Positions 8,969 through 56,914 of a stretch of DNA of 59,956 nucleotides are shown here, piece by piece. The position numbers were made by a program, and so were the translations under genes. How positions within the stretch are numbered: position 1 is the first letter of the stretch; each line of letters starts with the position of its first letter. Under the pieces are notes generated by a model that was not told the DNA's origin, ran no database searches, and saw nothing but the letters and a program-made list of their open reading frames with translations. Source of the DNA: an uncultured Lysobacteraceae bacterium (lineage in GTDB: Bacteria; Pseudomonadota; Gammaproteobacteria; Xanthomonadales; Xanthomonadaceae); assembly GCA_902825775.1 (NCBI GenBank), contig CADECF010000015.1:1-59956 (forward strand), written 5' to 3'.

Positions 8969-9741
8969 GCATTTCCGCGCTGGTCGTAGACGACGAACCG
9001 ATCGCGCGCCATGCGATCGTGCGCCTGCTGCGCGAGGATCCGGATATCGAACTGCTCGGCGAATGCGGCGACGGCGCATCGGCGGTGGTGGCGATCCGCA
9101 GCAAGAAGCCCGATCTGGTGTTCCTGGATATCCAAATGCCGGCGATGACCGGCATGGACGTGGCGGCCGAAGTCGGCCCGGAAATCATGCCGGCGACGAT
9201 CTTCGTCACCGCCTACGAGCAATACGCAGTGCGCGCGTTCGAGGCCAATGCGGTGGACTACTTGGTCAAGCCTTTCAGCCGCGAGCGCTTCGCCAGCACG
9301 TTGCGGCGCGCCAAAACCCGCCTGGGGGCTGCAGGCGCAGAAGCGACCGCCACGGCCCGGATTTTGCAGGCCCTGGATGCGTTGCGCCAGCGCGACGACT
9401 ATCTCGAACGCATTCCCGTGCGTGTCGACGAACACGTCGTATTCCTCGACGTCGACGACATCGTCTCGATCAAGGCCAGCCGCAACACGGTGCAGATCCA
9501 CCTCGCCGACCGCGTCCACGAACTGCGCGAAACGATGGCGGCGCTCGCCGCGCGCCTGGATCCCCGCCGTTTCGCCCGCGTCCACCGCTCGGCCATCATC
9601 AACGTGCGTCGCGTGAAGGCCATCCATCCCTGGTTCAACGGCTATCACGTGGTGACGATGGATACCGGACAGCAACTGCGCATGAGCCGCTACCAGCACG
9701 AGGCGTTCCTGCGATTGGCGACGACGCGGCGGGATGCCTGA
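8965..9741 (+). CDS. LytTR-family response regulator
   Basis: Response regulator of 258 residues, partner of the upstream kinase through an ATGA overlap. The receiver domain (1-115) has acidic Asp9/Asp10, phosphoacceptor Asp55 in FLDIQMP, Thr82 and Lys102. The C-terminal LytTR DNA-binding domain (about 155-252) has IPVRVDEHVVFLDVDDIVSI, RFARVHRSAIINVRRV and a final MSRYQHEAFL. LytTR regulators of xanthomonads often control envelope or motility genes, but no target is evident here. Confidence 0.93.
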   Translation: MSISALVVDDEPIARHAIVRLLREDPDIELLGECGDGASAVVAIRSKKPDLVFLDIQMPAMTGMDVAAEVGPEIMPATIFVTAYEQYAVRAFEANAVDYLVKPFSRERFASTLRRAKTRLGAAGAEATATARILQALDALRQRDDYLERIPVRVDEHVVFLDVDDIVSIKASRNTVQIHLADRVHELRETMAALAARLDPRRFARVHRSAIINVRRVKAIHPWFNGYHVVTMDTGQQLRMSRYQHEAFLRLATTRRDA

Positions 9742-20575: not shown

Positions 20576-21181
20576 ATGGCCAATCCCTTCGTCCGCGCCC
20601 AATACCTGCTCGCCGCACACAACCACCGCCAGCTGCCGCCCGACGGCGGCTACGAAGTCGCTTTCGCCGGCCGCTCCAATGCCGGCAAGTCCAGCGCGCT
20701 GAATGCGCTGTGCCAGCAGAACGCGCTGGCGCGCGTGTCCAAGACGCCAGGGCGCACCCAGCAGCTGGTGTATTTCGCGCTGCCGCCACTCGAAGACCGC
20801 TACCTGGTCGATCTGCCCGGTTACGGCTTCGCCAAAGTGCCCAAGGACCTGCAGGCGCACTGGCAGGCCTTCCTCGACGGCTATTTCGGCAGCCGCGATG
20901 CGCTCAAAGGTTTGGTCGTGGTAATGGACATCCGCCACCCGCTCAAGGATTACGACCGGCAGATGATCGGCTACGCGGTCAACCGCGGCCTGCCCGCGCA
21001 CGCGCTGCTGACCAAGGCCGATAAGCTCAGCCGCGGCGCGGCGGCGAATGCGTTGCAGGCGGTGCGCAAGGAATTGTCCGGCGCGTACGGCGATACCGTC
21101 AGCGTGCAGACGTTCTCGGGCGAATCGAAGCTGGGTGTGGAAGAGGCGCGCGATGTCGTCGCGCGTTGGCTGGAAATCTGA
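20576..21181 (+). CDS. engB: Ribosome biogenesis GTP-binding protein EngB/YsxC
   Basis: Essential TRAFAC GTPase needed for large-subunit maturation and normal division. The 201-residue length is typical. G motifs are G1 GRSNAGKSS (32-40), Thr in the KTPGRTQ switch, G3 DLPGYGFA (79-86), G4 TKAD and a C-terminal SGES-type G5. It is divergent from cytochrome c4, the usual xanthomonad order. Its TGA is followed immediately, with no spacing, by a family-2 palindromic repeat starting at 21182. Confidence 0.96.
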   Translation: MANPFVRAQYLLAAHNHRQLPPDGGYEVAFAGRSNAGKSSALNALCQQNALARVSKTPGRTQQLVYFALPPLEDRYLVDLPGYGFAKVPKDLQAHWQAFLDGYFGSRDALKGLVVVMDIRHPLKDYDRQMIGYAVNRGLPAHALLTKADKLSRGAAANALQAVRKELSGAYGDTVSVQTFSGESKLGVEEARDVVARWLEI

Positions 21182-21271
21182 GTAGCCCGGGTGGAGTGAA
21201 GCGATACCCGGGATGCTTGTCTGCACACGATCCGAAAAGCCCCGGGTATCGCTTCGCTCCACCCGAGCTAC
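21182..21271. repeat. Family-2 palindrome pair (GTAGCCCGGGTGGAGC type)
   Basis: Two inverted arms beginning GTAGCCCGGGTGG and ending CCACCCGAGCTAC. Each arm can fold on its own through CCCGGGT/ACCCGGG; the minus-strand arm is followed by GCTTTT. The element abuts the engB stop codon. The remaining 200 bp to gshA show nothing recognisable. Confidence 0.9.
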
Positions 21272-32520: not shown

Positions 32521-32601
32521 GTAGCCCGGGTAAGGCCGCAGGCCGCACCCGGGATCACGTCGCTATCTGGTCCCCGGGTGCGCTTCGCTTACCCGGGCTA
32601 C
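32521..32601. repeat. Family-2 palindrome pair overlapping the 3' end of the next gene
   Basis: Arms start GTAGCCCGGGTAAGG and end CTTACCCGGGCTAC. The right half codes for the last 14 or so residues of the minus-strand ATP-pyrophosphatase gene, and its stop codon (32555-32557) lies inside the repeat. Confidence 0.9.
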
Positions 32602-33292
32602 GGCGGTGCGGTTCGGCGAGCAGGAAATCGGTGAAGGCGAAGCGGCCGTCGCGCAGCGTCGTCTCGCCGCGCTCGACGGAGATCGGATGCGAGAACATCG
32701 GTCCGGCTTGGACGCAGGTATGGAACTCGCCGTTCTCTCCGCAGGGATCGCAGCCCGGCGGGAGATCGCCAAGCAAGCCCTCGTCGAAATCGCGGCCGGC
32801 GAAGTCCGCATCGAGCTGTTGCGTGTCGACGCAGCACAGCGAGGCGCGCAAGCCGCCGGCGATCATGTCGCGCGCCAGAAGCGACGTATCGGCGCCGAAC
32901 AGCGGCGTGATCGCCTGCCAGCCGACGGCGGCGCAGCGCTGCTCGCGATAGGCGCGGATGTCTTCGAGGAACAAGTCGCCGAACGCGGCCGTACGCAGAT
33001 CGGGCCAGCGCGCGTTGGCCAGCGCGAGCGCTTGCGACATCGCCGCTTCGTAGCGGGCGTTGTCGCAAGCCAGCGGGATTTCCGCTTCGATCAACGGCAG
33101 ACCGGTCGCAGCCGCCTGCGCGTGCAACACATCGCGACGGATGCCTTGCATCGACACGCGCTGGTATTCGGCGGTGAGCGTGGTCAGCAGCGCGACCACT
33201 TCGATGTCGTCGCGCTGGCGCAGCGCATGCAGCGTCCATGCGGCGTCCTTGCCGCCGCTCCAGGACAGCAGTACGGGAGTGCGTTGCGTCAT
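32555..33292 (-). CDS. Dph6-related ATP pyrophosphatase
   Basis: A 245-residue member of the ATP-PPase superfamily related to diphthine-ammonia ligase. The PP-loop is SWSGGKDAAW near residue 10, and the family signature GENGEFHTCV is near 198. Bacterial members are not known to make diphthamide; a substrate cannot be given. The reading frame runs into a family-2 palindromic repeat, which supplies the final residues SPGKRSAPGDQIAT, so the natural C-terminus has been replaced or extended by the repeat. Weak Shine-Dalgarno at the ATG. Confidence 0.83.
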   Translation of the reverse strand: MTQRTPVLLSWSGGKDAAWTLHALRQRDDIEVVALLTTLTAEYQRVSMQGIRRDVLHAQAAATGLPLIEAEIPLACDNARYEAAMSQALALANARWPDLRTAAFGDLFLEDIRAYREQRCAAVGWQAITPLFGADTSLLARDMIAGGLRASLCCVDTQQLDADFAGRDFDEGLLGDLPPGCDPCGENGEFHTCVQAGPMFSHPISVERGETTLRDGRFAFTDFLLAEPHRRSPGKRSAPGDQIAT

Positions 33293-39632: not shown

Positions 39633-40178
39633 ATGGCCGGCGCATCGGAAACCATCGGGATCCGCCGTTGCGGCGCTGAGGACGCCGAGCGATTGGCGCT
39701 TGTGGCTTCGGCGACGTTCCTGGAAACCTACGCCGGCGCGATCGAATGCGACGACATCCTCGCCCATTGCGCGTACCAGAATGCGCCGCAGCGCTACGCG
39801 GCATGGCTGGCCGATGAGCGCTACGTTTTCTGGTTGGCCGAGGTGCGATCCGGCCGCGCGCCTGTCGGGTTTTCGATGCTGTCGCCCCCGGACCTGTCGA
39901 GCGTGGCCACGCTCGACGGCGACCTGGAACTCAAGCGCATCTATCTGCTGCACCGCTTCCACGGCGGCGGCCACGGCGCGGCCTTGATGCAGGCGGCCAT
40001 CGACGAGGCCCGCGCGAGAGGCGCAGGCCGGCTGTTGCTGGGCGTTTACGCCGAGAACGCGCGTGCGCTGGCGTTCTACGCGCGCAACGGCTTCGTGCCG
40101 ATCGGCGAAAGGCGATTCCGCGTCGGCGATACCGAGTACTACGACCACGTCCTGGCGCTGGATCTCATCGACTCGTAG
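39633..40178 (+). CDS. GNAT-family N-acetyltransferase
   Basis: A 181-residue GNAT protein. The acetyl-CoA loop is in LELKRIYLLHRFHGGGHGAALM (HGGGHG near 110-115), followed by ARGAGRLLLGVYAENARALAFYARNGFV and EYYDHVLALDL. Substrate unknown. It starts 6 bp after the AMP nucleosidase stop and is likely cotranscribed. Its TAG stop (40176-40178) is formed by the edge of a family-2 palindromic repeat. Confidence 0.88.
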   Translation: MAGASETIGIRRCGAEDAERLALVASATFLETYAGAIECDDILAHCAYQNAPQRYAAWLADERYVFWLAEVRSGRAPVGFSMLSPPDLSSVATLDGDLELKRIYLLHRFHGGGHGAALMQAAIDEARARGAGRLLLGVYAENARALAFYARNGFVPIGERRFRVGDTEYYDHVLALDLIDS

Positions 40179-40266
40179 CCCGGGTGGAGCCGCAGGCGAT
40201 ACCCGGGGCTTTTGATCGCTCGTATGGAAGAGCCCCGGGTATCGCCTGCGGCTCCACCCGGGCTAC
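40175..40266. repeat. Family-2 palindrome pair supplying the stop codon of the GNAT gene
   Basis: Near-perfect arms GTAGCCCGGGTGGAGCCGC and its complement, separated by about 25 bp. The left arm alone folds through CCCGGGT/ACCCGGG and is followed by GCTTTT, an intrinsic-terminator shape. The TAG at 40176 is the stop of the preceding gene. Confidence 0.92.
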
Positions 40267-42633: not shown

Positions 42634-42724
42634 GTAGCCCGGGTGGAGCGTAGCGATACCCGGGGCTTTCCCGATGCGCGGATCGAACGCCCCCGGGTAT
42701 CGCCTGCGGCTCCACCCGGGCTAC
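42634..42724. repeat. Family-2 palindrome pair
   Basis: Arms GTAGCCCGGGTGGAGCG and its near-complement ending in CTAC, in the 194-bp gap between the divergent glutaredoxin-rhodanese and deacetylase genes. In this copy the arm loops differ (GGAGCGTAGCGAT versus GGAGCCGCAGGCGAT), indicating the two arms evolve separately. Confidence 0.9.
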
Positions 42725-42757
42725 GGTGGGTTGGCGCCTGCGTGGCATCATCGCTTC

Positions 42758-43561
42758 ATGAATATTCACCGCCCACCACGCTATCCGCATGTCTGGCGGC
42801 TGCTGCTCGTCGCCTCGCAACTGATCGTGATCGCGATCTGGTGGCGTTACGGCTGGAAAATCGGCTTGCCGGCGATGCTGGCCTCGCACCTGCCGTTCGT
42901 GTGGGGCACGTTGCGGCCGCAATCGCGCTTGTTCGGGCCGGCGTTGACGCGGCTGCCGACCGACGAACGGCAGGTATGGCTGACCATCGACGACGGTCCG
43001 TCCGGAGACACGCTCGCCTTGCTGAACCTGCTCGATGGGCATGCCGCCAAGGCGACCTTCTTCCTGGTCGGCGAACGCGCTGCGACGCAGCCGGATCTGG
43101 TGCGCGAAATCGCGCGGCGCGGGCATGGCATCGGCAACCACAGCGCCACCCATCCGTCGGCCTGGTTCTGGGCGCTGGGCCCGCGGCGGATGCGCGAAGA
43201 AATCGCGGGGTGCCAGACGATCCTGCAAGGCATCACCGGCACCGCGCCGCGCTGGTTCCGCGCCGTGGTCGGCATGGCCAATCCGTTCGTGTCGGCGCCG
43301 TTGCGCGATCTTGGCCTGGCGCGCGCTGCCTGGAATGCGCGCGGGTTCGATGGCGTCAGGCACGATGTCGACGGCGTGGTGGCGCGGATCGAGCGCGATC
43401 TGGCGCCGGGGGCGATCGTATTGCTGCACGAAGGCGCGCGGCATGGGCGCAATGTGGAGATGGTGGCGCGGCTGTTGAAGCGGATGGATGAGTTGGGTTA
43501 CCGGGCCGTGCTGCCCGAAGAATCGCAGTTCGCGCCAGGGCTGGAAAAAGCTCGCGGCTGA
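42758..43561 (+). CDS. Polysaccharide deacetylase-family protein
   Basis: A 267-residue carbohydrate esterase family 4 protein. A hydrophobic segment near 12-29 suggests a membrane anchor. The NodB motifs are TIDDGPS with Asp78/Asp79, NHSATH with His128 and His132, RWFRAVVGMANPF for motif 3 and IVLLHEGA for the last motif; motif 3 departs from the usual RxPxG/Y. The substrate may be peptidoglycan, chitin-like or a lipid-linked sugar. Its last three codons and TGA (EK-ARG-stop) come from a family-1 repeat beginning at 43549. Confidence 0.85.
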   Translation: MNIHRPPRYPHVWRLLLVASQLIVIAIWWRYGWKIGLPAMLASHLPFVWGTLRPQSRLFGPALTRLPTDERQVWLTIDDGPSGDTLALLNLLDGHAAKATFFLVGERAATQPDLVREIARRGHGIGNHSATHPSAWFWALGPRRMREEIAGCQTILQGITGTAPRWFRAVVGMANPFVSAPLRDLGLARAAWNARGFDGVRHDVDGVVARIERDLAPGAIVLLHEGARHGRNVEMVARLLKRMDELGYRAVLPEESQFAPGLEKARG

Positions 43562-43626
43562 AGCCGCTCCCACGAAAGCGCCGCGCCATGCCTTTTTGTG
43601 GGAGCGGCTTCAGCCGCGAGCTCTTC
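43549..43626. repeat. Family-1 palindrome pair supplying the end of the deacetylase gene
   Basis: Arms AGCTCGCGGCTGAAGCCGC and GCGGCTTCAGCCGCGAGCTC in the opposite outer orientation to other copies (arms read inside-out). The TGA within GGCTGAAGCC ends the preceding gene. A separate inverted repeat TGCGAATTCGTTCGC / GCGAACGGATTCGCGC follows at about 43672-43727. Confidence 0.88.
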
Positions 43627-47779: not shown

Positions 47780-49036
47780 ATGACCGACATCGCGCCCGAC
47801 ATCGCCCATCACGCCGCGCTCGACGCGCGCATGGTCGCGGCGGTGCGCGAATTGAAATTGCTGGCGCTGGTCAGCTGGCCCGCGGCCCTGCAGCCGCCGT
47901 TCCTGGAGTCGTTCGCGCGCGGGCGGCCGGTCATGCCGCGCGTGGACTATCCCAAACTCGATTTCTCCGACGCGCGCCGCGAACTCGCCGCGATCATCCG
48001 CGCCGCCGATACCGAGCACCCGCTCGGCCGTTATCTGGCCGAATCGGCGCAGAGCTGGTCGACCGCCGCGGAATTGCTCGAGTCGCTGGGCACGACCACG
48101 GTCACCACGCATTCGATGACCTTGTACGGCGGCCCGGAAGAACCGCTGCCCGGCAACGGACCCACCACGCGCGAGGCGGCGCGGCACTTCATCGCCATCG
48201 CCAGCGAACTGGACCGCGAACTGCTGGCGCCGTCCGAACAGGTCGCGATCTCGGCCACCGCCTTGAAACTGCAACTGCAGTCCGATCTCGACGGTTTCTT
48301 CGACCAGCGCGTGATCGAAGTGGTGCTCGATCCAGAACTGATCGCAAAAGCAGCCGCCGGCGCCACCCGCATCCGGCTGCGCGCCGGCGCCTCGTTCAGC
48401 GATTACGACCGCCATCAGCTGCTGCAGCACGAGGCCTTCGTGCATTCGCTGACCGCGCTCAACGGCCGCGGCCAGCCGCATTTCCCGAGCCTGGCGCTGT
48501 CCTCGCCGCGCACCACCGCCACCCAGGAAGGCCTGGCGACTTTCGCCGAGCAGATCACCGGCAGCATCGACATCGAACGCATGAAACGGGTCAGCCTGCG
48601 CATCGAGGCGGTGGCGATGGCGCTGGACGGCGCGGATTTCGTCGAAGTGTTCCGCTATTTTCTCGACGCCGGCCAGAACGAGGTGGAGAGCTTCGCGTCG
48701 GCCCAGCGCGTGTTCCGCGGCGTGCCGCTGACCGGCGGCGCGGCGTTCACGAAGGACGCGGTGTACCTGCGCGGCCTGATCGGCGTACATACCTTCTTCC
48801 GCTGGGCGCTGCGGCAACGCAAGCTGCGCCTGTGCCGGTTGCTGTTCGCCGGCAAGATGACGCTGGCCGACGTGCAGCGCTTCGAGCCCTTGTTCGATGC
48901 CGGCGTGATCCATCCGCCGCGCTGGCTGCCGCAATGGGTATCGCGCGCGAACGGCCTGGCCGGCATGCTGGCGTTTTCGCTGTTCGCCAATCGCATCCGG
49001 CTCGATCAGATCGATACCGGCGCGTCGATGCTGTAG
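47780..49036 (+). CDS. QEGLA-motif metallopeptidase-like protein (DUF1704, flavohemoglobin expression-modulating family)
   Basis: A 418-residue protein with HEAFVH at 217-222 (HExxxH) and QEGLA at 249-253, the signature of DUF1704. The vertebrate tubulin tyrosine carboxypeptidase MATCAP belongs to this family, so a zinc carboxypeptidase function with His217, His222 and Glu250 as ligands/catalyst is inferred. The bacterial substrate is unknown; the family name comes from an effect on flavohemoglobin expression. A GGAA motif precedes the ATG. The TAG stop is the edge of a palindromic repeat. Confidence 0.88.
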   Translation: MTDIAPDIAHHAALDARMVAAVRELKLLALVSWPAALQPPFLESFARGRPVMPRVDYPKLDFSDARRELAAIIRAADTEHPLGRYLAESAQSWSTAAELLESLGTTTVTTHSMTLYGGPEEPLPGNGPTTREAARHFIAIASELDRELLAPSEQVAISATALKLQLQSDLDGFFDQRVIEVVLDPELIAKAAAGATRIRLRAGASFSDYDRHQLLQHEAFVHSLTALNGRGQPHFPSLALSSPRTTATQEGLATFAEQITGSIDIERMKRVSLRIEAVAMALDGADFVEVFRYFLDAGQNEVESFASAQRVFRGVPLTGGAAFTKDAVYLRGLIGVHTFFRWALRQRKLRLCRLLFAGKMTLADVQRFEPLFDAGVIHPPRWLPQWVSRANGLAGMLAFSLFANRIRLDQIDTGASML

Positions 49037-49116
49037 GGCGGGTCCCGACCCGCGCTTTTTTCACCGGAAACCGATCATTCCACTCGCGTAAAAACGCGGG
49101 TCGGGACCCGCCCTAC
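49033..49116. terminator. Family-5 palindrome pair: shared stop codons and bidirectional terminator
   Basis: Arms GTAGGGCGGGTCCCGACC and its complement. On the plus strand GCGGGT-CCCG-ACCCGC is followed by GCTTTTTT (49038-49061); on the minus strand the mirror hairpin is followed by GTTTTT. Both convergent genes end at the TAG in the repeat edges (49034-49036 plus, 49115-49113 minus). Confidence 0.88.
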
Positions 49117-50459
49117 CGCAACGGCGTAAGGCGACCATCGGGCTCGATGACGTAATCGACCGCTTCGCCTTCCCGCACTAGAACCGCACGTTCGCCGATG
49201 GGCACGCCGCGATAACTCGGAATGTCGTGGGTCAGCCGGTCGAACAGCCAGCGTTGCGACGGATCCGCGCTGCGCAGGCGGATCGTATCGTCGCCATTCT
49301 CTCTGACGACCTCGGCCAGCGCCGGCGAGAACACCGCCTGTACTTCGCCCGCCGCATGCATGCGGCGCACGATGTTGGCGCCGTGCCACAGCGATAAAAC
49401 GGCCAGCACCACGATCACGGCCTTGCCGAAACGCCCCATCCGCGGCCAGGCCGCAGCGCAGATCGCCGCGGTGACGGCCGCGAATCCATAACCGTATTGA
49501 TTGGCCGATTCGGCCAGGATCAACACCGGCCCCAACGACGCCGCACCGGCCAACAGGAAGCCCAGCAGCCAGCGTGGACCGACACGCCACAGCGCCCAGG
49601 CCAGCGCCAGCCACAGCGCGATCGCCGCCAGCACGCGGCCATCGCCCAGGCCGCGCGCCAGGGTGCCGGCGACTTCCATCTTGGTCGGGTTCGGCGCGAA
49701 CAGCTGGTATTCCAGCCAACGCTGCGGAATGAAGGCCAGATCCCAGCCGTAGTTGGCCGCTTGGCGCGGAGAAAACAGCAATACGCCCAGCCGCAGCGCC
49801 AGATAAATCGCTACCGGCACCGCTGCCGCCAGCGCTGCGCGCCCCCAGCCCGGGCGACGCCCGAGAAACCACCAGGCCAACGCCAGCAAGGCGGGGATCA
49901 CGACCGCCGCTTCCTTGGCCAGCAGCGCAAGCACGGTCAGTGCAGCGCTTGCCGCAACGGTGGCCGACCGATGGCGATCGCGCTGCGCGATCAGTGCGAT
50001 CGCCAATGCGCAGCCGACCCAGATCAGGTCGGCCAGCGTCCCCACCCAACCATGCGTATGCGCCGCGTAGGCGCCTAGCGCGAACGCCAAGGCGCCGGCG
50101 GCCGCAGCGGCGGCGCTGGCGCCGAAACGACGCAGCAACAGCGCCAGCAGCGCCGCGTTGAGGCCGCCCAACCCGACCATGACGGCATGGAAGGCATAGG
50201 GATAATCGAACAAATGCCGCGACAACCACAGCCACAGCGAGAACGTGAGCGGCCGGTATTGGAACGACTGCACGCCCGACCACAGATGGCCGTGCGCCAT
50301 CCAGTCGGGCGTTTGCGCCGCGAAAGCCGCCCATTGCAGCTCGTCGTGGCTGAAATAGCCGGGATTGAGCACCAGCGGCCATTGCGCCAGCAGCACGGCG
50401 ACGAATACGCCGACGGGCAGCTGCCATGCCATGTTTTTACGCGTCGGTTCCGATGCCAT
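49113..50459 (-). CDS. Polytopic membrane protein, possibly GT-C-type glycosyltransferase
   Basis: A 448-residue protein with about ten transmembrane helices and a C-terminal soluble tail of about 90 residues. The first external loop has PGYFSHDELQWAAFA, an acidic motif placed like the catalytic Asp/Glu of GT-C glycosyltransferases; the assignment is tentative. The ATG at 50459 has GGAGG four bases upstream; readings from 50507 or 50558 are longer and unsupported. It is divergent from maeB. The TAG stop is formed by a family-5 palindrome. Confidence 0.7.
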   Translation of the reverse strand: MASEPTRKNMAWQLPVGVFVAVLLAQWPLVLNPGYFSHDELQWAAFAAQTPDWMAHGHLWSGVQSFQYRPLTFSLWLWLSRHLFDYPYAFHAVMVGLGGLNAALLALLLRRFGASAAAAAAGALAFALGAYAAHTHGWVGTLADLIWVGCALAIALIAQRDRHRSATVAASAALTVLALLAKEAAVVIPALLALAWWFLGRRPGWGRAALAAAVPVAIYLALRLGVLLFSPRQAANYGWDLAFIPQRWLEYQLFAPNPTKMEVAGTLARGLGDGRVLAAIALWLALAWALWRVGPRWLLGFLLAGAASLGPVLILAESANQYGYGFAAVTAAICAAAWPRMGRFGKAVIVVLAVLSLWHGANIVRRMHAAGEVQAVFSPALAEVVRENGDDTIRLRSADPSQRWLFDRLTHDIPSYRGVPIGERAVLVREGEAVDYVIEPDGRLTPLR

Positions 50460-50575
50460 TGCGCCTCCGGCCCCGCATTGTGCGAGATCGTCCGCCTGCA
50501 ACGCCATCGCGGCGACATTGGCGGTACAGCGAAACCCGCTAGAATCGGTAGCCCGCAAGCGGCAAGATCCCAGCG

Positions 50576-54002: not shown

Positions 54003-55823
54003 ATGACGACCGAAGCCGACTCGCCCGGATGGAAGCGCAGGCTGCGCGATTGGGATGCCGCGCGCCGGCGCCGGCGCCGCGGCGAGCTGACTTATCCGGA
54101 ATGGGCCGAACGCCACGACACGCTCGGCGAGGCCGCTCTCGCAGCGTTGCGCGAGCGCTTGCGGCGGCTCGAGCGCAAACCGCTGATCTCCGTATTGATG
54201 CCGGTATACAACCCGCGTCCGCAATGGCTCCGCGAAGCGCTGGACTCGGTGCGCGGCCAGCTCTACCCGCACTGGCAGCTGTGCATCGCCGACGATCTGT
54301 CCACCGACCCGGAAGTGCGCCGCGTGCTGGCCGAGTACGCCGCGATCGACGAACGCATCCGCGTCGAATACCGCGAAAGCAACGGCCACATCTCGGCCGC
54401 CTCGAATTCCGCGCTGGCATTGGCCGACGGCGAATACGTCGCGCTGCTCGACCACGACGACCTGCTGCCGCAACACGCGCTGCTGTGCGTCGCCGAAACC
54501 ATAGACCGCTATCCCGGCGCCGCGCTGATCTATTCCGACGAAGACAAGATCGACGACAGCGGGCAGCGCTGCGGCGCGTACTTCAAGTGCGACTGGAATC
54601 CGGAACTGTTCCGCTGCTACAACATGATTTCGCACCTGGGCGTCTACCGCACCGGGCTGATGCGCGCGGTCGGCGGCTTCCGCGTGGGCTACGAGGGCGC
54701 GCAGGACTACGACCTGGCCCTGCGCTGCATCGAAAGCATCCAACCCGAACAAATCGTGCACATCCCGCAGGCGCTCTACCACTGGCGCATCCACGAGGCC
54801 AGCACGGCCGGCGGCAACGCCACCAAGCCGTACGCGCTCGACGCCGGCCGCCGCGCGCTGCAGGAGCACTTGGCGCGCAACGGCCTGGACGCCGAAATCA
54901 TCGCGCACGGCGCCGGCTGGTATCAGGTCGATTACGTCCTGCCGCATCCGACGCCCGCGGCGACCGTGATCGTGATCGACGATGGCGACGCCGACGCGCT
55001 GCAGCGTTGCGTCGACAGCCTGCTCGCGCACGACGATTACGGTTTGTGCGAATGGATCGTCGCCTCCGGCAACGACAAGCGCGCATTACCGGCGCAGTGG
55101 TCGCAAGCCGGCGTACGGAGCATTGCCTCGCCCGATGCGGCTTCGCTCGCGGCGCTGCGCAATGCGGCGGCGCGGGCGGCCAGCGGCGAAATCCTGGTGT
55201 TCGTGGACAGCCGCTGCGAGATCGTCGATGCCGGCTGGCTCGGCAAGCTGGTGTCGTTCGCCGCGCGTCCCGGCACCGGCGCGGTGTCGCCGAAACTGGT
55301 TTCGGAGGAAGGCCGCATCGCCGGCGGCGGCGCGCTGCTGGGCATGCACGGCGGTCTGGGCTCGCTCGGCCGCGGCGCCAGAGCGGACGAGATCGGCTAC
55401 TACGGACGCACGCTCCTGTCGCAGAACCTCAGCGCGCTCGACGACGGCTGCATCGCGATCGCACGCAGCGCCTTCGAACGCGTCGGCGGTTATCCGCAGG
55501 ACTACCGCAGCGCGCAGGCCATGACCGTCGCGTTATGCCTGAGCCTGGCCGATGCCGGTCTGCGCAACGTCTGGGTGCCCTCGCTGCAGGTGCGCAGCCA
55601 TCCGGCATCGCGATGGGCGGCATGGCTGCAACGGCGGCGCGTGCATGGCGATCTGGCGCGCCTGCGTTCGGCCTGGCCCGAAGCGATGACGTGCGATCCC
55701 GCCTACAACCCCAACCTGACCGCGACACGCGACAACTTCACGCTGGCCAACCCCCCGCGCATCGATATCCAAAAACCCTGGTACGTAGCCCGGGTGGAGC
55801 CGCAGGCGATACCCGGGAATTGA
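54003..55823 (+). CDS. Two-domain GT2-family glycosyltransferase with repeat-encoded C-terminus
   Basis: A 606-residue protein. The first GT2 domain (about 60-290) has SVLMPVYNPRPQWL, ADDLSTDPEV, LLDHDDLLP (DXD) and SDEDKIDD. The second (about 320-560) starts ATVIVIDDGDADALQRCVDSLL and has FVDSRCEIVD, a weakened DXD, so it may be inactive or of different specificity. The last 12 residues (from VARVEPQ to the end) and the TGA are encoded by a family-2 palindrome at 55785. Likely cell-surface polysaccharide synthesis. Confidence 0.85.
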   Translation: MTTEADSPGWKRRLRDWDAARRRRRRGELTYPEWAERHDTLGEAALAALRERLRRLERKPLISVLMPVYNPRPQWLREALDSVRGQLYPHWQLCIADDLSTDPEVRRVLAEYAAIDERIRVEYRESNGHISAASNSALALADGEYVALLDHDDLLPQHALLCVAETIDRYPGAALIYSDEDKIDDSGQRCGAYFKCDWNPELFRCYNMISHLGVYRTGLMRAVGGFRVGYEGAQDYDLALRCIESIQPEQIVHIPQALYHWRIHEASTAGGNATKPYALDAGRRALQEHLARNGLDAEIIAHGAGWYQVDYVLPHPTPAATVIVIDDGDADALQRCVDSLLAHDDYGLCEWIVASGNDKRALPAQWSQAGVRSIASPDAASLAALRNAAARAASGEILVFVDSRCEIVDAGWLGKLVSFAARPGTGAVSPKLVSEEGRIAGGGALLGMHGGLGSLGRGARADEIGYYGRTLLSQNLSALDDGCIAIARSAFERVGGYPQDYRSAQAMTVALCLSLADAGLRNVWVPSLQVRSHPASRWAAWLQRRRVHGDLARLRSAWPEAMTCDPAYNPNLTATRDNFTLANPPRIDIQKPWYVARVEPQAIPGN

Positions 55824-55883
55824 GCCGAGGCAGATTCGGGATCGCGCGATCCCGGGTATCGCCTGCGGCTCCACCCGGGCTAC
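55785..55883. repeat. Family-2 palindrome pair between convergent glycosyltransferase genes
   Basis: Arms GTAGCCCGGGTGGAGCCGC and its complement. The plus-strand gene reads through the left edge (TAC-GTA-GCC) and stops at a TGA inside; the minus-strand gene stops at the TAG of the right edge (55882-55880). Confidence 0.92.
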
Positions 55884-56848
55884 AGGCGGAATCTCGGCCC
55901 GGAAATCGGCGGCTCTTTGCGCGCACGCCGCAGTTTGCGGATGAAGCGGCTCTGCAGACGCAGCGCGTTGATCGCCATCGCGCCGCGCCACGGCGGCGCC
56001 GCGGCGCGCGCTTCCCAAACGCAGCGCAGCAGCGGTCCGATACCGCGTCCCGCTTCGGCTCGCTCCAGCGCCTGCAGCATCGCCGCCGCGCGGCCGTCGC
56101 GGTCGAAAGCGCTGCCGGCCAGCGCACGCAGCAACGCGCGGCGTTCTTCGATCCATACCCGGTTGCGGCTCGGCGGCGCTTGAGTGCCGTCCTTGCCGAG
56201 CGGCGAGAACGCGGCATCGTGGCGGCGGAACTGCACAAGCGGTTCGTCGAGATACACCACGCCGCCGCGCGCCGCCGCGCACATGGCCAGCCACCAATCG
56301 TGGAACAGCCCCGGCGGAAACGGCCGCGCCGCTTCGAACAGCGCGCGCCTGACGATGAGCGCATGTCCGGATACGGAATTCGAGAACACGAACTGCATCG
56401 GCTCGTGTCCCGACATCATAGTGAGGTCCGATGAGATGCCGCGGCCGCTGGCCTGACCGGCGCCGTCGATGTATTCCGAATCGCAGTAAGCCAGATCGGC
56501 ATCGCCGATGGCATCCAGCAGCTTGGACAGTTTTTCGGGATGCCAGCGGTCGTCCTGGTCGCAGGGCGCGACGAATTCGCCGCTGCCCAACGCCATGGCC
56601 TTTTCGAAGCTGCGCAGCGGGCCGAGATTTTCCGGATTGACGTGCACTTGCACGCGCGGATCGCGCGCGGCGATTTCGCGCAGCAGCGTCACGCTGCCGT
56701 CGCTCGAACCGTCGTCGACCGCGATCACCTCCAAGCCCACGCCGCGTTGCGCCAGCACCGTGTCCAACTGCTCGCGCAGATGGCGTTCGCCGTTGTAGAC
56801 GCACAGCGCGACGGATACGCGCGGGGGTTGCAGTGGATTCGTGCTCAT
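55880..56848 (-). CDS. GT2-family glycosyltransferase
   Basis: A 322-residue GT2 protein related to rhamnosyl/galactosyl transferases of O-antigen synthesis. SVALCVYNGERHLREQLD, AVDDGSSDGS, NPENLGPLRSFEKA and PCDQDDRWHPEKL (DXD) are in the expected order; SVSGHALIVRR and FHDWWLA follow. The start at 56848 (MSTNPLQP) is preferred over one nine codons upstream. It is on the opposite strand to the two other glycosyltransferases, sharing a repeat at the 3' end. Its TAG stop is from that repeat. Confidence 0.88.
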   Translation of the reverse strand: MSTNPLQPPRVSVALCVYNGERHLREQLDTVLAQRGVGLEVIAVDDGSSDGSVTLLREIAARDPRVQVHVNPENLGPLRSFEKAMALGSGEFVAPCDQDDRWHPEKLSKLLDAIGDADLAYCDSEYIDGAGQASGRGISSDLTMMSGHEPMQFVFSNSVSGHALIVRRALFEAARPFPPGLFHDWWLAMCAAARGGVVYLDEPLVQFRRHDAAFSPLGKDGTQAPPSRNRVWIEERRALLRALAGSAFDRDGRAAAMLQALERAEAGRGIGPLLRCVWEARAAAPPWRGAMAINALRLQSRFIRKLRRARKEPPISGPRFRL

Positions 56849-56914
56849 CGCGGGCCGGGCGGTGCGGGTGCGCACATCGTAACGAAAGCCGGGGCATCCG
56901 GCCGACGACTGCCG

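Follow-up and report, generated by a model that had tools for sequence, protein, structure and literature searches.

Stop codons of two convergent genes in the GTAG tags of a tail-to-tail pair of repetitive extragenic palindromes

Two GTAG-tagged repetitive extragenic palindromes (REPs) lie tail to tail at 49033-49116 of the window (the whole 59,956-nucleotide stretch of DNA that was analysed), and the TAG stop codons of the two genes that converge on this pair are part of its tags. Comparison with stretches of four genomes of the same genus establishes that this coincidence of gene stops with GTAG tags is not due to chance; it is probably a by-product of a transposase recognition tag combined with purifying selection, with the pair at this site having replaced older TAG stops.

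The two units of the pair (unit 1 of family F5, 49033-49053 on the plus strand; unit 2, 49096-49116 on the minus strand) are identical copies of the 21-base sequence GTAGGGCGGGTCCCGACCCGC, with heads facing outwards (GTAG at 49033-49036 and at 49113-49116) and a spacer (49054-49095) between them; as a whole, the pair has arms of 37 nt that are 89% complementary, with 30 nt between the arms. Gene A (47780-49036, plus strand), which encodes a 418-aa protein of the MATCAP/QEGLA-motif family (PF08014 at 7.1e-120; TIGR02421 above cut-off), ends in ATG CTG TAG, the TAG (49034-49036) being bases 2-4 of GTAGGGCGGGTCCCGACCCGC. Gene B (49113-50507, minus strand; start codon uncertain, from 50432 to 50558 depending on the call), for which no match was found in Pfam or NCBIfam, ends in a TAG (49113-49115) that is bases 2-4 of the minus-strand copy. 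The first-pass annotation of this DNA had described each arm as opening with a TAG in frame with the converging gene and then forming a GC hairpin followed by five or six T residues, and this description is borne out: each unit contains a 6-bp stem (49038-49053 and its mirror image) beginning one base past the TAG, with T6 (49056-49061, plus strand) after the stem of unit 1 and T5 (minus strand; A5 at 49090-49094 on the plus strand) after the stem of unit 2.

The pair is of the GTAG-tagged REP type, having a tag joined to a palindrome, many copies, and a mostly extragenic arrangement as tail-to-tail dimers. With up to three mismatches allowed, GTAGGGCGGGTCCCGACCCGC is found at 23 places in the 3.76-Mb genome; the exact 21-mer was dropped as a repeat family, since it occurs exactly only at 49033-49116 and the families are broader. 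Five families, delimited by mismatch thresholds with heads fitting two families merged, comprise four tagged with GTAG or GTGG and one tagged with CGTC. They account for 372 heads (44 of them F5) in 859,956 sampled bases of the window's genome and for 203 tail-to-tail pairs in the sampled stretches of the four genomes, 54 of which lie between convergent genes. A pyrimidine directly precedes the tag in most copies of these families. The commonest REP is that of F1, GTGGGAGCGGCTTCAGCCGC (e.g., 43598-43621 of the window), in which the 5' flank is strongly T-rich (6 bits in four bases). REPs are small repeats whose movement is attributed to REP-associated tyrosine transposases (RAYTs), and the families considered here may be mobile in the same way. 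The genome has two Y1_Tnp matches, neither of which is flanked by F5 REPs: one (at locus L086) scores above the cut-off for NF047646 (REP-associated tyrosine transposase) and has two F1 REPs, both on one side, and the other (L088, 9572-10036) is a 154-aa open reading frame between inverted F2 GTAG REPs with heads at 9520 and 10145. The layout of the latter (L088:9520-10145, which is C7:169520-170145 of the window's genome) is the arrangement described as a REPtron.

The relation between gene stops and tags was evaluated in 2.2 Mb of stretches from four Luteimonas genomes, with uncurated gene calls from a dicodon model whose training set the true frame against the five wrong ones. A gene stop falls exactly on the tag TAG at 44 of 335 GTAG heads, whereas no stop occurs at offsets of +1 to +3 and four in all occur at +5 to +80. 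Those four belong to genes that enter a GTAG head in another frame, and no gene runs through; no same-strand gene extends more than 80 nt past any of the 335 heads. Counted per ortholog group, there are 30 cases in the TAG frame and four in another, where random frames would place one-third in the TAG frame (binomial p = 5e-11). Heads with other tags behave differently: no stop falls on the tag of any of 180 GTGG heads (one gene ends further in and three run through), nor on that of any of 140 CGTC heads. These counts exclude 65 heads (24+18+5+18) with a tag other than GTAG, GTGG or CGTC; among them are two GTAA heads at which a gene ends, and these two genes are outside the 44 but inside the class of 46 REP-TAG genes used for the ortholog comparisons below. 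An excess of stops at repeat edges, which the first-pass annotation had put forward for checking, is thus found for GTAG edges in the sampled stretches.

Stops on a REP tag make up about 12% of the TAG stops in the sample (44/375) and end 2% of the called genes (44/2022). Apart from C1 and C2, the stretches of the window's genome were picked where repeats or transposases were known, and those of the relatives were picked by synteny; C1 and C2 were sampled in contig order and give a lower rate, 5 of 62 GTAG heads (F2 3/32, F5 2/14, F4 0/10, F1 0/6), with no other-frame cases. Outside the genus, one genome (G015) is REP-poor, and a small sample of another (G016, 200 kb) contains 18 heads of a related family, of which two end a gene with their TAG and none is entered in another frame; unlike the pyrimidine rule above, A stands before the tag in 6 of the 18.

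The families differ in how often the tag TAG serves as a stop (F5 11/45, F4 19/89, F2 14/145, and GTAG-bearing F1 0/56), and also in the information carried by the four bases before the tag (1.27, 0.73, 4.50 and 6.02 bits, respectively). TAG use is higher in the two families with a loose flank (F4 and F5) than in the two with a strict, T-rich flank (F1 and F2; p = 6e-5); only four families underlie this trend, and their order is not strict, F5 being above F4. The lower use in the strict-flank families may arise because a T-rich flank requirement would seldom fit the GC-rich ends of coding sequences.

Elsewhere in the window, other genes end at REPs. Seven coding sequences had been listed as ending inside repeats (at 32555, 40178, 43561, 49036, 49113, 55823 and 55880), four of them at an edge TAG, and engB as ending one base before a repeat. 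All seven coordinates are correct, the sites falling in three REP families (F1, F4 and F5) and not in one, and the four at an edge TAG are 49036, 49113, 40178 and 55880. A GNAT acetyltransferase gene (39633-40178, plus strand) stops on the TAG of an F4 REP pair at 40175-40266, and the gene at 55880-56875 (minus strand) stops on that of another F4 pair, at 55785-55883. The TGA of engB (20576-21181; TIGR03598) adjoins an F4 REP (21182-21212, plus strand), the GTAG of which begins directly after it, at 21182. The polysaccharide deacetylase open reading frame (42674-43561, plus strand) has its TGA inside the minus-strand, GTGG-type unit of an F1 REP pair at 43550-43621. Rare exceptions to the frame rule are the F4 REPs at 55785-55823 and 32555-32601, which are crossed or entered in a non-TAG frame: the gene at 54003-55823 (plus strand) reads through one F4 REP of the pair at 55785-55883 and ends with a TGA in the spacer, and the gene at 32555-33292 (minus strand) enters the F4 pair at 32521-32601 and likewise ends with a TGA in the spacer. 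At the contig start, the window has a CAGCAA-type tandem repeat (1-66).

The proposed explanation of these patterns begins with GTAG as a RAYT recognition tag, as published for other species (a guide role being shown in one and presumed in others). TAG then stands at the outer edge of every intact copy, and in a BIME-like tail-to-tail dimer such as 49033-49116, both TAG edges face the neighbouring genes on their coding strands. Copies landing near or on the stop of a gene would be kept if their TAG were in frame, and copies making the ribosome read into the hairpin would be lost, a selective filter that the frame counts suggest. The idea of the first-pass annotation that the repeats are retained at gene ends fits with this, as heads are entered nearly always in the TAG frame and the C-termini of the genes concerned have changed more than others.

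A different consequence of proximity to the stop could also be considered: a hairpin beside the stop codon may stall the terminating ribosome and so lower expression of the upstream gene, a TAG-ended REP being the zero-distance case. Such an effect is reported, in the accessible part of PMC12306157, for REPs of E. coli that lie under 16 nt from the stop, and the 6-bp stems at 49033-49116 begin only one base after the TAG; against this, many REPs lie further on, same-strand stops being frequent also 5-14 nt ahead of GTAG heads, which leaves ribosome stalling a possible but rather doubtful account.

Orthologs that end without a REP offer a view of what the tags may have replaced. Of 40 REP-TAG genes, 23 differ in C-terminal length from the closest ortholog lacking a REP-TAG stop; the same is true of 23 of 128 genes with a REP 0-20 nt past their end, of 48 of 183 TAG genes that have no REP, and of 254 of 1202 genes with no REP. 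Two kinds of pair were removed from the 97 ortholog pairs of REP-TAG genes, namely 32 with a REP-tag stop in the ortholog too and 10 with a hairpin at the ortholog's stop; in the remaining 55, which are not independent, the REP-TAG gene is shorter in 24, equal in 21 and longer in 10 (TAG genes without a REP: shorter 56, equal 339, longer 66), and the REP-free ortholog ends with TAG in 24, TGA in 25 and TAA in 6. These length changes and the orthologs ending in TGA or TAA suggest that many REP-TAG stops have replaced another stop near the last codons. That every REP-TAG stop goes back to an old TAG was rejected, since 31 of the 55 pairs have TGA or TAA in the ortholog. The mean TAG fraction of the REP-free orthologs is nevertheless 0.45 over 25 REP-TAG ortholog groups, versus 0.23 in 127 control groups containing a TAG gene and 0.14 across the 436 groups that have no REP-TAG gene, so that a preference for existing TAG stops, or the decay of REPs leaving a TAG behind, may also be in play. 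Comparison with orthologous ends that lack the repeats had been proposed in the first-pass annotation as a check; more than half of these ends agree with a stop brought by the repeat, and the remainder are TAG.

That division bears on the possibility of targeted insertion, in which the element would enter existing TAG or CTAG stops and the repeat would merely copy them. This could account for the TAG excess among the orthologs, and also for several REP-free relatives that have CTAG or TTTAG exactly at the site of the pair, where the REP by eye replaces the tetranucleotide with similar flanks. Targeted insertion is nonetheless unlikely, given that 31 of the 55 orthologs end in TGA or TAA, frequently at the same codon or close to it, that ordinary TAG genes also keep their TAG in 164 of 461 ortholog pairs, and that some of the TAG orthologs resemble decayed REPs. 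Some REP-TAG stops seem to sit on an older TAG, and the excess of TAG among orthologs seems to come partly from decayed REPs. A broader proposition, by which decayed REP heads would account for many plain TAG stops, was discarded, only 6 of 331 scoring strongly in an ungapped comparison, by which gapped remnants are missed.

The junction of genes A and B is probably one where the repeat sits on older stops. Among 80 named loci surveyed, gene B is convergent within 1.5 kb of gene A in 19, and in six of these (L168, L171, L172, L201, L209 and L212) the two genes overlap by four bases, a single CTAG providing TAG on both strands. The stop of gene A in the 19 is TAG in 10 (including L. gilva, which bears the REP), TGA in eight and TAA in one. 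Another REP-free locus (L009) has TTTAG at the junction, where by eye the TAG of gene A overlaps the TAA of gene B. L. gilva has a single REP palindrome at the junction where the window has a pair, and by eye the REP (GTAG...CTAC) stands where CTAG was, similarly flanked and still preceded by CT. Gene A of the closest relative (G003) has a TGA stop next to a different hairpin, and gene B was not found within the 1.5-kb flank of gene A. Although the TGA or TAA ends of gene A in nine of the 19, and its TGA in G003, speak against it, the presence of TAG or CTAG in several REP-free relatives suggests that the repeat did not bring the stop here; it probably took over stops that predate it, and the older TAG ends that the pair would have replaced may have been one common CTAG, as in several relatives.

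A bolder reading makes the tag itself advantageous: the stop codon within it would render tail-to-tail dimers unusually safe as insertions between convergent genes, a portable in-frame stop that lets them colonise gene ends and even split a common CTAG into two TAGs. We consider this improbable, but if it were true, the genetic code would be part of the reason why GTAG has spread over other tags.

With respect to transcription, a two-way terminator at 49033-49116 is plausible from the layout of the locus, as its T6 and T5 tails may act as terminators locally. The single hairpins fold at -13.5 and -11.8 kcal/mol (z-scores of -1.86 and -1.37; 10/200 and 17/200 shuffles fold as well), and the RNA of the whole dimer forms a single long hairpin (-61 kcal/mol) that may compete with them; terminator-like sites in the 6 kb scanned number 9, compared with 5.0 +/- 2.5 by chance. 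A T-run follows 34% of F1, 36% of F2, 4% of F4 and 20% of F5 units, compared with 3.2% of intergenic positions, percentages that are only roughly comparable because T-runs were counted from the end of the family pattern, at a variable distance from the stem. Tail-to-tail pairs with a TAG-ended gene on one side or both number 24, some of them mutual orthologs; a T-run is present on any side in six and on both sides in one, which is the pair at 49033-49116. Both neighbouring genes are ended by the pair in 4 of the 24, the other three being G001 L138:14512-14585 (F4), G001 L164:1887-1967 (F4) and G000 L055:19247-19332 (F5). Thus, the bidirectional terminator suggested in the first-pass annotation fits the structure of this locus and fails for the class, and its extension to ready-made stop-terminator cassettes in general is not supported, because the families that give most of the stops (F4 and F5) have the fewest T-runs. 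Selection of the dimer for ending both genes and terminating transcription both ways, although it would suit the two folded units and their T-runs here and the frequent T-runs of F1 and F2, is very doubtful in view of the F4 and F5 frequencies, the scarcity of T-runs among TAG-ended dimers, the number of chance sites, the possible competition from the dimer fold, and the single REP of L. gilva, which stands at the junction without a T-run.

A tag-derived stop sifted by purifying selection, the reading we prefer, can be set beside systems already described. Like an intrinsic terminator between convergent genes, the pair at 49033-49116 has a GC hairpin and a T-run on both strands, but T-runs are not general in the repeat family, and most TAG-ended dimers lack them. 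The REPs and RAYT of S. maltophilia, as presented in the accessible parts of PMC2817692 and PMC8266576, share with those here the GTAG tag, a short palindrome and RAYT-type genes, and the cleavage at C|T given in PMC8266576 fits the pyrimidine before the tag; they differ in belonging to another genus and having other palindromes, no F5-flanked RAYT having been found in this genome. The GTAG REPs of Di Nocera et al. 2013 are the closest match: in the portion of that report available (PMC3733652), they are short GC palindromes with GTAG at one end, in many copies, forming dimers in opposite orientation beside gene 3' ends, and their GTAG termini are stated often to supply a TAG stop to flanking open reading frames. 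The observation of stops derived from GTAG is consequently not new. What the present analysis contributes is the frame test, the tag controls, the flank comparison and the relatives with a common CTAG; relative to the available text of PMC3733652, the frame test, the GTGG and CGTC controls and the empty-site comparison are additions, and no earlier frame test of GTAG REP stops was found in the literature searched, which omits most subscription papers. Small mobile repeats may rewrite the 3' ends of genes, and annotators should bear in mind that C-terminal differences among orthologs can be REP insertions. What had been a sentence in the REP literature becomes a measured effect with internal controls in the GTGG and CGTC tags and in flank stringency.
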